A stretch of 64,000 nt of DNA from Saprospiraceae bacterium. GTDB taxonomy: Bacteria > Bacteroidota > Bacteroidia > Chitinophagales > Saprospiraceae. Shown here piece after piece: positions 34,016 through 52,235 of the stretch. The notes beneath the pieces were generated by a model, which saw nothing but the letters and a program-made list of their open reading frames with translations, did not search any database and was not told where the DNA came from. The translations under genes were made by a program, and so were the position numbers. The stretch is from the NCBI GenBank assembly GCA_013214355.1, contig JABSSL010000003.1, positions 1-64,000 on the forward strand, written 5' to 3'. Numbering within the stretch: position 1 is the first letter of the stretch; every line of letters starts with the position of its first letter.

Positions 34016-34855
34016 ATGAAAAAGATCTTATTTCCTACTGATCTTTCTGATGCTGCAAATCACGCCTTTATCTACGCCTTGCAATTGGCAGACAAATGGA
34101 ACGCTAGTATAACAACTATTCACGTGTACCAGGAAATGCAGATCGGAGACATCCACCTGCCGGGTAGCCTCTACAATTTCTATCAGAGTATGGATCTCTA
34201 TTCTTTCGAGAATTACCGAGACTCTATTCCTGTGCTGGTTGAATTAGCTAGAGCAAAGGGATTGGAACACGTGGAGGTCCGACACATGTTGGAGCAAGGG
34301 GAAGTAGTGGAAAGCATTTTGGAGGCAGCACAGAAGGAAGGGACAGATCTGATTGTGATGGGAACGACAGGAGCGCGCGGATTGAAGGAAATTTTCCTCG
34401 GAAGTGTAGCAGGGGAGGTATTGGAAAATGCTTCTTGCCCGGTCTTGGCCGTGCCAGCGAAGACAGAATTTGATGGTAAAATAGATAACATAGCTTACGC
34501 TACCTCTTATAAAGATGAAGATGTGGAAGCCATCAAACGTTTGGCGGGGCTGCTAGGTAGTTTTCATCCTCAACTTCACTGCGTTAATGTGGATTTGGCA
34601 CACACCGAGGAGATTACCCAGCAAATGGATCAGTTCCAAGACAAAGTTGGGGCTACCGAAGTACCCATCAGCTATAAAGTGTTAGAGGGAACGGATATGA
34701 AGAAAGCCTTGACGGACTTCTTGGAAGCCGAAAAGGTGGACATCATTGCTATGCTTACACGCAAACGCAGTTTTGTACAGGAGCTCTTTAACTATAGCAA
34801 GACTAAAATGATGGCCTATCATGCCAATACGCCAGTTTTGGCTTTACATATTTAA
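34016..34855 (+). CDS. Tandem universal stress protein (UspA family)
   Basis: The 279-residue protein contains two Usp domains (about 1-150 and 155-279). The first is canonical: KKILFPTDLSDAANHAFIYA, then the ATP-binding signature MGTTGARGLKEIFLGSVAGE and ENASCPVLAVPA. The second is more divergent and lacks the G-x2-G-x9-GS motif. Usp proteins bind ATP and support survival under stress; the partner is unknown. It is monocistronic, ended by the hairpin at 34881-34933. Confidence 0.88.
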   Translation: MKKILFPTDLSDAANHAFIYALQLADKWNASITTIHVYQEMQIGDIHLPGSLYNFYQSMDLYSFENYRDSIPVLVELARAKGLEHVEVRHMLEQGEVVESILEAAQKEGTDLIVMGTTGARGLKEIFLGSVAGEVLENASCPVLAVPAKTEFDGKIDNIAYATSYKDEDVEAIKRLAGLLGSFHPQLHCVNVDLAHTEEITQQMDQFQDKVGATEVPISYKVLEGTDMKKALTDFLEAEKVDIIAMLTRKRSFVQELFNYSKTKMMAYHANTPVLALHI

Positions 34856-34933: not shown

Positions 34934-35068
34934 CTTTCTTTTCTCCCATTCAGTACTTTCTTTTATTTTGGTTCTCTGACAAATGTGTACGTTGGAGAAT
35001 ATCTTTTTCTACCCCTACCGTGAAGTTTTTCCCCTGCTCAGCATTAATAGAGTAAAGAGGATACGAAA

Positions 35069-35659
35069 ATGCCGTGGGATCCATCTCAATCAGATCATAG
35101 CCTGCTAGCGGCTTGGGCTAGCGGTGACCAAGCAGCTGCCAGTGTATTTGTTCAAAAGTACTATCGTCATGCCATGGTACTTAGCCTGGGCTATTGCAAA
35201 GGGGATACGGAGCAGGCTGAAACGGCCACGCAAACCTTCTTTGAGCGATTGGCTCGACGTTTGCCGAAACTAGGGCAAGAGGAACCCGCGAAGCTCCAGG
35301 AGATTGGGCAGCATTTTTCAGCTTACTTACTGACCGCCATCAAGAACAATGTTAATGAACAAAGGCGCTCAGCAGTTCACTACCGAACCAAGATCATTGC
35401 CACGAGTCCTCGTACAAAGCCGGTAGCTGAGCCTCCCGCAGCTGAAACTTTTGTGAGAGAGGATGCTATCCGTCATGTCTTATCCTTTTTGCCAGAAAGT
35501 CAGCGAACGGTATATCGACTCTATCTAGAAGGGTATTCCCACCAAGAGATTGCCCAGAAAATTGGTCTTAAGCAAGGCCAAGTGCGCGGAAGAATTGACC
35601 GGGGCAATCAGAAGCTCCGGCAGCATCGACAGTTAATTCATCAATTGCTAAAGCCTTAA
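35069..35659 (+). CDS. RNA polymerase sigma factor (sigma-70/ECF-like)
   Basis: The 196-residue protein has a divergent region 2 (LLAAWASGDQAAASVFVQKY, then TFFERLARRLPK) and a clear region 4 (VLSFLPESQRTVYRLYLEGY followed by HQEIAQKIGLKQGQVRGRID). The linker at about 110-130 is proline-rich. This fits an alternative sigma factor of the ECF type that redirects RNA polymerase. The next gene starts 10 bp after its stop and encodes a membrane protein with an anti-sigma-like N-terminus. That pairing is the usual layout for a sigma factor held inactive at the membrane. See the finding on 35069-36395. Confidence 0.85.
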   Translation: MPWDPSQSDHSLLAAWASGDQAAASVFVQKYYRHAMVLSLGYCKGDTEQAETATQTFFERLARRLPKLGQEEPAKLQEIGQHFSAYLLTAIKNNVNEQRRSAVHYRTKIIATSPRTKPVAEPPAAETFVREDAIRHVLSFLPESQRTVYRLYLEGYSHQEIAQKIGLKQGQVRGRIDRGNQKLRQHRQLIHQLLKP

Positions 35660-35669
35660 AGTATAGGAT

Positions 35670-36395
35670 ATGCAGACACCCAAATCAGTGTATGTGCCAT
35701 TTGAGCGGATTATGGCCTACTGCGAAGGGAACTTGGCAGAGGAGGAGGCTGCGCAAATTCGAGAGTTGGCAGCACAAGAGCCGCTCATCCAGGAAACGAT
35801 TGTTCACCTACAAGATCTTTTACAGGAGAGAAGTAGCCAAAATATTAAACAAATGCTCGATCATTCTTTACAAAGCTTCTTACAGCAACCTTTAATTATA
35901 GAGCCGCCAATTACTAAGACACCTTCTTGGTTTCAGCGGATGACACTTGATGTGGAGACCATCTTTTCAGCTAGCCATATCGCATGGAGAAAAGTCTTGA
36001 TCCTCGGCAATATTGTACTGGCCTTACTGCTAGGACATATGTTCTATCAAACCCTAGTCTTCCCGGCAGAAGCACAGGATACCGAACTCACCGCTAATGA
36101 TCCAACCTTGCTGTTTCCGGATGGTTTTACACCCAATGGAGACGGTGTAAATGATGTTTTCCAACCCAAATTGGTGAAGAAGGTGAAGATATTCCGTGAA
36201 TTCTCCATCTACAATCGCTGGGGAGAGCAGGTGTATACGGCGACTAACTTTTCCTCGAAGAGTGCAAAGAAAGCTTGGGACGGTACCGTAAATGGCGAAC
36301 CAGCAGAAGCAGCATCTTACTACTATATCGTTCGACTGCAGAACGCATTAGGTTTTGAGGAAACATTTAACGGTATGCTTAGCCTGAAGCGCTAA
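35670..36395 (+). CDS. Putative anti-sigma factor with CHU_C (T9SS type-B) sorting-like ectodomain
   Basis: The 241-residue protein has three parts. Residues 1-70 are helical (FERIMAYCEGNLAEEEAAQI, then a glutamine-rich helix) and look like the cytoplasmic part of an anti-sigma factor, though without zinc-binding cysteines. One membrane helix lies at about 108-129 (KVLILGNIVLALLLGHMFYQ). Residues 148-241 form the gliding-motility-associated C-terminal domain (CHU_C, PF13585): FTPNGDGVNDVF, IYNRWGEQVYTA, KAWDGTVNGEPAEAASYYYI and a final NGMLSLKR. That domain normally terminates large secreted proteins and serves as the T9SS type-B signal. Here it follows an internal membrane helix, with no N-terminal signal peptide. 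It is co-operonic with the sigma factor 10 bp upstream. Confidence 0.8.
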   Translation: MQTPKSVYVPFERIMAYCEGNLAEEEAAQIRELAAQEPLIQETIVHLQDLLQERSSQNIKQMLDHSLQSFLQQPLIIEPPITKTPSWFQRMTLDVETIFSASHIAWRKVLILGNIVLALLLGHMFYQTLVFPAEAQDTELTANDPTLLFPDGFTPNGDGVNDVFQPKLVKKVKIFREFSIYNRWGEQVYTATNFSSKSAKKAWDGTVNGEPAEAASYYYIVRLQNALGFEETFNGMLSLKR

Positions 36396-36416: not shown

Positions 36417-37199
36417 TCAATGGGTAAAATAACTATCGGGGGAGCGGAGGGTATCTCGATAGAAAGGATATTTCTCCATCTCCGCCGCTAGTTCTTTTGG
36501 ACTTAGGTAGGTGCCTCCTTCCTCATTGGCAATTTCTTCTTGCGTATTTCCGAAAGATTTCCGCACAAAAAAAGCATAATCATACAGCTGATAGCCTAGG
36601 CCATGTGCTACTGCTCGTTTATCTGTATCCTGTTCAAAGCGATCGTGAAAGTCACCGTTTTTTTCGTACTGATAGGCGATTCGTGCGAGTTGAAATGAGT
36701 TCTTGTCTAAATAGAACAGCGTGTGTGCCAGCTCATGCCCTAAGACTCCCACTTGCTCGTTAATGGGAAGATTATGCATCAGAATGCCCTCAAAGAAGGC
36801 GGCCGACTTGCTGCTGATGACCACGAGGTATTTTCGTTTGAGCCAAGGTAAAAGCACCGTGATGGGGGCTGGCCGAGAAGCCAAGGGAATGAAGGTTTCT
36901 TGGATGACAAAGTCAATGGGTACTTCTTTTAATTCGGGGTAGTGGGATAAGGCCAGCAGGCACTGCAGTTCATAACCTTTGGCCAGGCTTTTATGTTGTC
37001 CAAACTCCTCCAGTAGTAAATTGTATAAATTGGATTCTACATCAGCACTGTAGACAGGGGGTGCTTTTATTTCTGAGGGTGGGGGAGGGGCTGGTCTTTC
37101 AACTGCTCCACGGTCTAAGAGCAGTAGTAGGATAAGCAATAGAACTAGCCCCAATAAGCTTAGGGATATCCATTTGAGGATGCGTAGGGTGATTTTCAT
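36417..37199 (-). CDS. Membrane-anchored zincin-like protein
   Basis: The 260-residue protein starts with one strong membrane helix (LKWISLSLLGLVLLLILLLL, about 8-27). A proline-rich linker (ERPAPPPPSEIKAPP) and a soluble domain follow. The domain contains HELAHT near residue 155, the HExxH zinc signature, followed about 37 residues later by FEQDTDKRAVAHGLGY, whose acidic residues could supply the third ligand. It is probably a membrane-tethered metallopeptidase. The family is not named with confidence, and the catalytic role is inferred from the motif alone. It converges with the sigma/anti-sigma operon, 21 bp between stops. Confidence 0.65.
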   Translation of the reverse strand: MKITLRILKWISLSLLGLVLLLILLLLLDRGAVERPAPPPPSEIKAPPVYSADVESNLYNLLLEEFGQHKSLAKGYELQCLLALSHYPELKEVPIDFVIQETFIPLASRPAPITVLLPWLKRKYLVVISSKSAAFFEGILMHNLPINEQVGVLGHELAHTLFYLDKNSFQLARIAYQYEKNGDFHDRFEQDTDKRAVAHGLGYQLYDYAFFVRKSFGNTQEEIANEEGGTYLSPKELAAEMEKYPFYRDTLRSPDSYFTH

Positions 37200-51653: not shown

Positions 51654-52235
51654 ATGCAAGTTACGCCGCTTAATGATCAACAGCTTATTGCACGCTATCT
51701 TGAAGGTGATGAAAGAGCATTCGAAGAGCTTCTCAACCGTCACCAGCAAAAAATTTACACTTCCATTTATCTGTTTGTCAAGGAACAAAGCCTTGCCGAA
51801 GACATTTTTCAAGAAGTTTTCATCAAGATCATCGACACCCTTCGTAAGGGTAAGTACAATCATGAAGGAAAATTCCTACAATGGGCCCTTCGGATCTCGT
51901 ACAATATGTGCGTAGATTACTTCCGAAGAACCAAGCGTAGGCCACAAGTTTCCCCTACTGAGACTTTCGACATTTTTGATGTACTACCTTTGACTGAAGA
52001 AAATGCGGAACAGAACATCATCCGCAGCCAGACGCATGATAAGGTGCGTAAGTTGGTGAATATGTTACCTCCTGAGCAAAGAGAGGTCGTTATTCTCCGC
52101 CACTACGCAGACATGAGCTTCAAGGAAATTGCGAAGTTGACTCGAGTAAGCATTAATACTGCCCTAGGCAGAATGCGCTATGCCTTGATCAACATCAGAA
52201 AGATGGTAGAAGAAAAGGAAGTTATCTTACAGTAA
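51654..52235 (+). CDS. RNA polymerase sigma factor (ECF-like)
   Basis: The 193-residue protein has region 2 (LIARYLEGDERAFEELLNRH, EQSLAEDIFQEVFIKII, WALRISYNMCVDYFRRTKR) and region 4 (LPPEQREVVILRHYADMSFK, then ISINTALGRMRYALIN with R in place of the first I). Layout and length fit an ECF sigma factor. Unlike the sigma gene at 35069, no anti-sigma gene follows. Regulation is unknown. Confidence 0.92.
   Translation: MQVTPLNDQQLIARYLEGDERAFEELLNRHQQKIYTSIYLFVKEQSLAEDIFQEVFIKIIDTLRKGKYNHEGKFLQWALRISYNMCVDYFRRTKRRPQVSPTETFDIFDVLPLTEENAEQNIIRSQTHDKVRKLVNMLPPEQREVVILRHYADMSFKEIAKLTRVSINTALGRMRYALINIRKMVEEKEVILQ

Follow-up and report, generated by a model that had tools for sequence, protein, structure and literature searches.

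A sigma factor gene and a predicted membrane anti-sigma partner carrying a type IX secretion sorting domain in a Saprospiraceae bacterium

The window considered here, that is the whole stretch of 64,000 nucleotides that was analysed, belongs to a genome of 11.2 Mb in 224 contigs (G000); among its named relatives an uncultured Lewinella (L031) is the closest. It carries a sigma factor gene followed, after a gap of 10 bp and on the same forward strand, by a gene for a membrane protein that ends in a CHU_C domain, the type-B C-terminal domain (CTD) of the type IX secretion system (T9SS). Such a tail ordinarily serves these bacteria in exporting adhesins by way of the T9SS. The coordinates and the spacing of the two genes, as given in a first-pass annotation made from the DNA letters, were verified from the open reading frames. 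The features of the locus, with the evidence for each in brackets, are the following:

34016–34855, + strand: universal stress protein, left neighbour (PF00582, 2.3e-36; synteny)
35019–35049, + strand: candidate autoregulatory promoter, CGTGAAGTTTT-N15-TAATA (conserved in three species)
35069–35659, + strand: ECF-type sigma-70 factor, 196 aa, regions 2 and 4 (TIGR02937, Sigma70_r4_2)
35670–36395, + strand: putative membrane-anchored anti-sigma factor with CHU_C ectodomain, 241 aa (orthologues L031 and L032)
35670–35897, + strand: residues 1–76, putative zinc-less anti-sigma domain, predicted cytoplasmic (sigma-adjacent relatives; fold match; pN/pS)
35898–35978, + strand: residues 77–103, poorly conserved juxtamembrane segment, predicted cytoplasmic (low identity, low pLDDT)
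35979–36071, + strand: residues 104–134, transmembrane (TM) helix, N-in by charge (hydropathy, modelled helix)
36072–36107, + strand: residues 135–146, short tether, predicted periplasmic (low pLDDT at 134–143)
36108–36392, + strand: residues 147–241, CHU_C / T9SS type-B C-terminal domain (PF13585, TIGR04131)
36417–37199, − strand: convergent membrane-anchored protein with HELAH motif, right neighbour (sequence; synteny)

In profile searches the product of the first gene matched TIGR02937 across residues 23–185 (E=1e-15) and Sigma70_r4_2 (2e-10), and its closest solved structure is the ECF sigma factor SigL (E 9e-7). It has sigma regions 2 and 4 only and a length of about 200 aa, as an ECF factor does, and its pN/pS in the between-species comparison is 0.18–0.21. 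Upstream of the gene, the block CGTGAAGTTTT-N15-TAATA has one exact match per genome in three genomes, each at the sigma/partner operon, and this candidate promoter probably puts the operon under its own control. When two mismatches were allowed, the matches were not in excess of the control and no regulon was inferred; since the candidate promoter is confined to its own operon, no regulon ties the sigma factor to the T9SS.

The 241-aa partner has the order of a type II membrane protein, namely a helical N-domain, one TM helix, a short tether and a complete CHU_C/TIGR04131 domain. Specifically, the N-domain was modelled by AlphaFold2 as helices 11–18, 24–36, 38–52 and 54–72, with pLDDT values of about 84–95 over residues 11–50. 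When the isolated N-domain model was compared with solved structures by VIA-align, the five top PDB entries were RslA (Z 6.2), RsiW (5.5), RskA (4.7) and ChrR (4.7 and 4.4), all of them anti-sigma domains complexed with ECF sigma factors, while the first unrelated entry scored 3.7. Foldseek superposed ChrR at 1.0 A over 50 columns, with E-values above 2 that are not significant, and the N-domain profile run against PDB sequences gave RskA and RslA at 0.41, likewise not significant. The likeness to RskA, RslA, ChrR and RsiW is thus one of N-domain fold, without significant sequence similarity, and their sensor parts differ from that of the window protein. The domain holds one cysteine (C18) and no Hx3CxxC motif, and its Pfam zf-HC2 match is sub-threshold (E=0.08); on these grounds it is not a zinc anti-sigma (ZAS) domain, in line with the first-pass annotation, which had seen an anti-sigma-like N-terminus free of zinc cysteines. 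A zinc site is also missing from RskA.

The gene neighbourhood of N-domain relatives points the same way. Among 150 family genomes, seven of the eight weak relatives of residues 1–147 lie directly downstream of a sigma-70 gene, with the eighth (L119), in a different gene, apparently a chance match; among 395 class genomes, all nine relatives of the N-domain of a Flavobacteriales locus (L038, described below) are so placed. Pooled, 16 of 17 relatives adjoin a sigma gene, for which the probability is near 1e-31 on the assumption that about 1% of genes have a sigma gene before them. The N-domain pN/pS (0.17–0.23) is near that of the sigma gene. Because the neighbourhood of the relatives, the predicted fold and the joint inheritance reported below agree, the anti-sigma reading is well supported, and 35069–35659 and 35670–36395 very probably form a sigma/anti-sigma pair, whose contact we infer.

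Between the N-domain and the membrane, the model has pLDDT values of only 54–56 for residues 71–100, and residues 77–104 have an identity of 32–46% and a pN/pS of 0.39–0.72. The sole hydrophobic segment of the protein lies near residues 104–130 by hydropathy and was modelled as a helix over 104–134; a signal-peptide-like segment was looked for at the N-terminus and none was seen, so that the membrane helix without signal peptide described by the first-pass annotation stands. The helix is preceded by WRK and followed, over 15 residues, by four negative and no positive charges, which is why the protein is predicted to be N-in. By the same prediction the CHU_C domain would lie in the periplasm, and a signal peptide is absent.

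About 12 residues separate the modelled helix from CHU_C in the window protein and in its L031 orthologue. The linker (residues 131–147) is identical to that of L031 at 17 of 17 positions despite high synonymous divergence. In the L032 orthologue (genome G121) the tether is longer by about 138 residues, owing to three 46-aa units inserted between the TM helix and CHU_C, each similar to the linker joined to roughly the first twenty residues of CHU_C (pairwise z 5.7–8.0). These tandem spacer units (L032 5001–6137, the same locus as L112/L123 in G121) are degenerate copies, visible as repeats at the protein level only; repeats were sought at the DNA level and not found. From these insertions it follows that tether length is free to vary. 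The L032 domain could reach the outer membrane, as its tether would be long enough to cross the periplasm if extended, while a tether of about 12 residues cannot span it.

The C-terminal part of the protein is a complete sorting domain, as had been claimed for residues 148–241: PF13585 matches residues 149–235 (E=3e-17) and TIGR04131 residues 149–241 (E=1.1e-15), both above the curated cut-offs. With the 29 other CHU_C domains of the same genome as the reference for invariance, P155, D158, N161, D162, R183, W184, G185 and G205 are kept in the three orthologues. The residues commonly shared among CHU_C domains are nearly all kept as well, with 151, 215 and 216 as notable departures, and the retained motifs include PNGDG.ND, RWG, W.G and the terminal L.R. 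The modelled domain superposes on the translocon-bound T9SS substrate CTDs 8gl8, 8glk and 8gl6 with Z 8.7–8.8 (74–76 residues, 2.0–2.1 A) and on the CTDs of PorZ and PorU with Z 8.3 and 7.6, respectively; streptococcal protease Ig-like domains reach Z 11.3. Its pN/pS (0.16–0.23) is similar to that of the sigma gene. Judged by the between-species comparison, the anti-sigma domain, the linker and CHU_C are under purifying selection, and the juxtamembrane segment is not. Owing to this selection, to the conserved linker and to the retention of the invariant residues, CHU_C is best regarded as a maintained functional part of the protein and not as a relic.

The two-gene unit, with its 10-bp spacing and domain order, recurs in two other genomes, at 66–79% protein identity (79% overall for the L031 orthologue of the 241-aa protein and 66% for that of L032), a recurrence beyond what chance would give. 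Lack of co-conservation had been named as grounds for rejecting the pair; of the four species of the genus, three have both the sigma and the partner gene and the fourth, G014, has neither. In G014 the universal-stress gene and the gene for the HELAH protein are direct convergent neighbours, 236 bp apart (L228 2701–4454). The 236-bp spacer holds no relic of the pair and no similarity to the window flanks beyond the gene ends, and neither sigma nor partner was found elsewhere in this 80%-complete genome. Being together in three species and jointly absent in G014, the two genes are gained or lost as one unit. No second copy of the pair was found in the 11.2-Mb genome of the window.

The architecture was searched for more widely, at two scales, and it was found in three genomes of one Lewinella-like genus, a stop-bearing case in L038 being left uncounted. 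A scan of one genome per species over 84,980 species returned only L031 and L032 as full-length relatives, and a profile search of 398 family genomes, which scored few candidates per genome and may have missed distant cases, returned the same genus only. The architecture may be rare and young, or else its N-domain may diverge too fast for such searches. Several further candidates were rejected. Nearly all the short CHU_C frames that were read among the 398 family genomes are large proteins cut by contig ends, the remaining ones are ordinary secreted proteins, and no sigma gene lies beside any of those read. In L003 a large CHU_C gene has a sigma gene on its 3' side, which is the wrong one, and the adjacency looks incidental. 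The Flavobacteriales locus L038 (3290–5276) has a sigma gene, an anti-sigma-like N-domain, one in-frame TAA, a TM helix, a Fn3-like region and CHU_C; its relatives have a 170-aa anti-sigma frame, too short for CHU_C, and its ectodomain matches the tail of proteins of about 1660 aa. For these three reasons it was not counted as a second independent unit of sigma factor, anti-sigma factor and CHU_C, and it is possibly a recent fusion, maybe a pseudogene or an assembly fault.

In the genome of the window, CHU_C matches over the cut-off number 57. PorP/SprF proteins number 19, of which seven are encoded directly downstream of a CHU_C gene. Beside the pair no PorP/SprF or other T9SS gene was found among the neighbours scanned, and the window CHU_C is an orphan. 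Type-B CTDs are received by PorP/SprF-type shuttles, which orphans can share, and five motifs are needed in them (PMC12618676, PMC9143113). Measured against such cargo, the window protein has the C-terminal CHU_C/TIGR04131 domain and lacks the N-terminal Sec signal peptide. It shares that domain and its conserved residues with the type-B cargo proteins SprB and PG1035 (PMC12618676, PMC9143113), but unlike them it has no Sec signal peptide, no passenger and no adjoining PorP/SprF gene, and it has a predicted anchor in the inner membrane. As G014 has CHU_C proteins and no sigma/partner pair, the pair is not needed for the T9SS.

The pair is a variant of the known membrane anti-sigma factors, and the nearest logic is that of Dma and RsgI. 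The Dma/Das ECF21 pairs of Bacteroides are alike in having a sigma-adjacent gene, an N-terminal sigma-binding domain, one TM helix and a tether, and the C-terminal domain of Dma and the window CHU_C are both tied to outer-membrane biology (PMC13088901). Dma is a precedent for a Bacteroidota anti-sigma factor that reaches towards the outer membrane (PMC13088901); the window protein ends, however, in an Ig-like CHU_C domain and not in an outer-membrane beta-barrel, and its tether has about 12 residues whereas that of Dma is long and disordered. In the RsgI / SigI systems of Clostridium thermocellum, the anti-sigma factor senses with an outer domain of a type that also occurs within the secreted system under its control, and the sigma factor is released by proteolysis (PMC12203970). 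These differ from the window pair in that the organism is Gram-positive, SigI is not an ECF factor, the sensor binds polysaccharide and the regulon is known. In Porphyromonas gingivalis, a protein with a T9SS CTD acts upstream of an ECF sigma factor through the chain PorA - PorXY - SigP (PMC7712824), a precedent that the first-pass annotation had not cited. PorA stands on its own as a surface protein, has a signal peptide and signals via a two-component system, while in the window the CTD, of type B, is inside the anti-sigma factor itself.

The gene pair, the anti-sigma domain, the predicted topology, the intact CTD and the joint inheritance are all well supported, and we infer from them a switch of the following kind. 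The helical N-domain would hold the sigma factor at the cytoplasmic face of the inner membrane, one helix would cross this membrane, and the Ig-like CHU_C domain would serve as a periplasmic sensor. The trigger at CHU_C would most likely be its engagement by the usual handler of type-B CTDs, or else its proteolytic loss. Either event would inactivate the anti-sigma domain, probably through regulated proteolysis of the kind that acts on other membrane anti-sigma factors. The sigma factor would then be freed. We give a probability of about 0.6 to this reading as a whole, in which a T9SS type-B CTD is the periplasmic sensor of a sigma/anti-sigma switch and a CTD-handling partner acts on it. The nature of the domain suggests that the sensor may read the state of the cell's own secretion or envelope machinery. 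That the T9SS or CTD-handling factors are themselves what is sensed is a tentative proposal, put at less than even odds because the tether is short, T9SS genes are not nearby, no regulon was obtained and the pair is dispensable in G014. More specific is the idea of a cargo mimic. The first-pass annotation had proposed that CHU_C could compete with or mimic T9SS cargo and thereby sense secretion status; in the form considered here, PorP/SprF-type shuttles or the translocon would act on the sorting domain, and transcription would depend directly on how occupied or intact the type IX secretion machinery is. This is possible but doubtful; the short tether, the lack of an adjoining PorP/SprF gene and the dispensability in the sister species point against direct contact of CHU_C with the outer-membrane translocon.

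Of the alternatives, the one that survives best is that of an ordinary anti-sigma factor in which the Ig-like CHU_C was co-opted for a periplasmic or cell-wall ligand, with no functional tie to the T9SS. The short tether, the narrow distribution and the fact that T9SS genes are not adjacent would all fit, as would the free variation among the C-terminal parts of the anti-sigma relatives (RskA-like, TPR-like and cupin-like by eye). This is a possible reading, to which we lend limited credence, and it has to accommodate a CHU_C that keeps every residue shared without exception by the genome's secreted type-B CTDs, beyond what the fold alone needs.

The ectodomain might otherwise be held by an outer-membrane partner and measure envelope distance or integrity, in the manner of Dma, whose anti-sigma proteins consist of an anti-sigma domain, a TM helix, a long tether and an outer-membrane barrel (PMC13088901). 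The three extra 46-aa units of the G121 orthologue speak for such an arrangement, which is nevertheless unlikely, since the window protein and its L031 orthologue have tethers of only about 12 residues. More improbable still is that CHU_C is severed behind the TM helix and leaves the cell like any other T9SS cargo, the cutting being the signal or the fusion merely tethering a cargo gene to an anti-sigma gene. In the window protein and its L031 orthologue, a PAEA-QD sequence after the helix does look like a site for signal peptidase, but L032 has PEEA-KG at the same place, so that the site is not kept, a cytoplasmic N-region of 104 residues is unusual for a signal peptide, and CHU_C stands alone without a passenger. 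Finally, the CHU_C fusion might have persisted as a neutral relic in a protein, that of 35670, which is no anti-sigma factor, as the N-domain Pfam match of 0.08 at best might hint. This is very improbable and already disfavoured by purifying selection on the N-domain and CHU_C, the operon structure with joint gain or loss of the genes, and the fold match of the N-domain to anti-sigma domains.

Under the preferred reading, a switch with CHU_C as its sensor, the repertoire of sensors in anti-sigma factors of Bacteroidota would gain this domain. The open-access papers searched gave no account of a T9SS sorting domain in an anti-sigma factor, and PorA-PorXY-SigP is the one worked case that we found of T9SS-state sensing in Bacteroidota. 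If true, an anti-sigma factor that senses with a secretion signal would make the link within a single protein and could serve directly as a reporter, and the five CTD motifs needed for secretion could be mutated and read out as sigma activity.

Some observations were made alongside. The convergent gene at 36417–37199 encodes 260 aa with an N-terminal TM helix and a GHELAH motif, possibly a membrane-anchored metalloprotease; a Pfam profile search gave no family for it, its conservation is 89–91% in two congeners, and all four species of the genus have it in synteny. The window has another ECF-type sigma gene, at 51654–52235, with no anti-sigma-like gene adjoining; it is followed by genes for a PadR-like regulator and a MacB/FtsX-like permease. 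Among the sigma-linked anti-sigma-like proteins, those of L114 (499–1830) and L187 (1261–2403) seemingly carry two tandem copies of the N-domain before the TM helix. In other Bacteroidia, sigma-linked proteins of L189 (304–1860) and L190 (427–1740) have an N-terminal TM helix and a long, Dma-like C-terminal region, in which an outer-membrane barrel was assigned by eye only.
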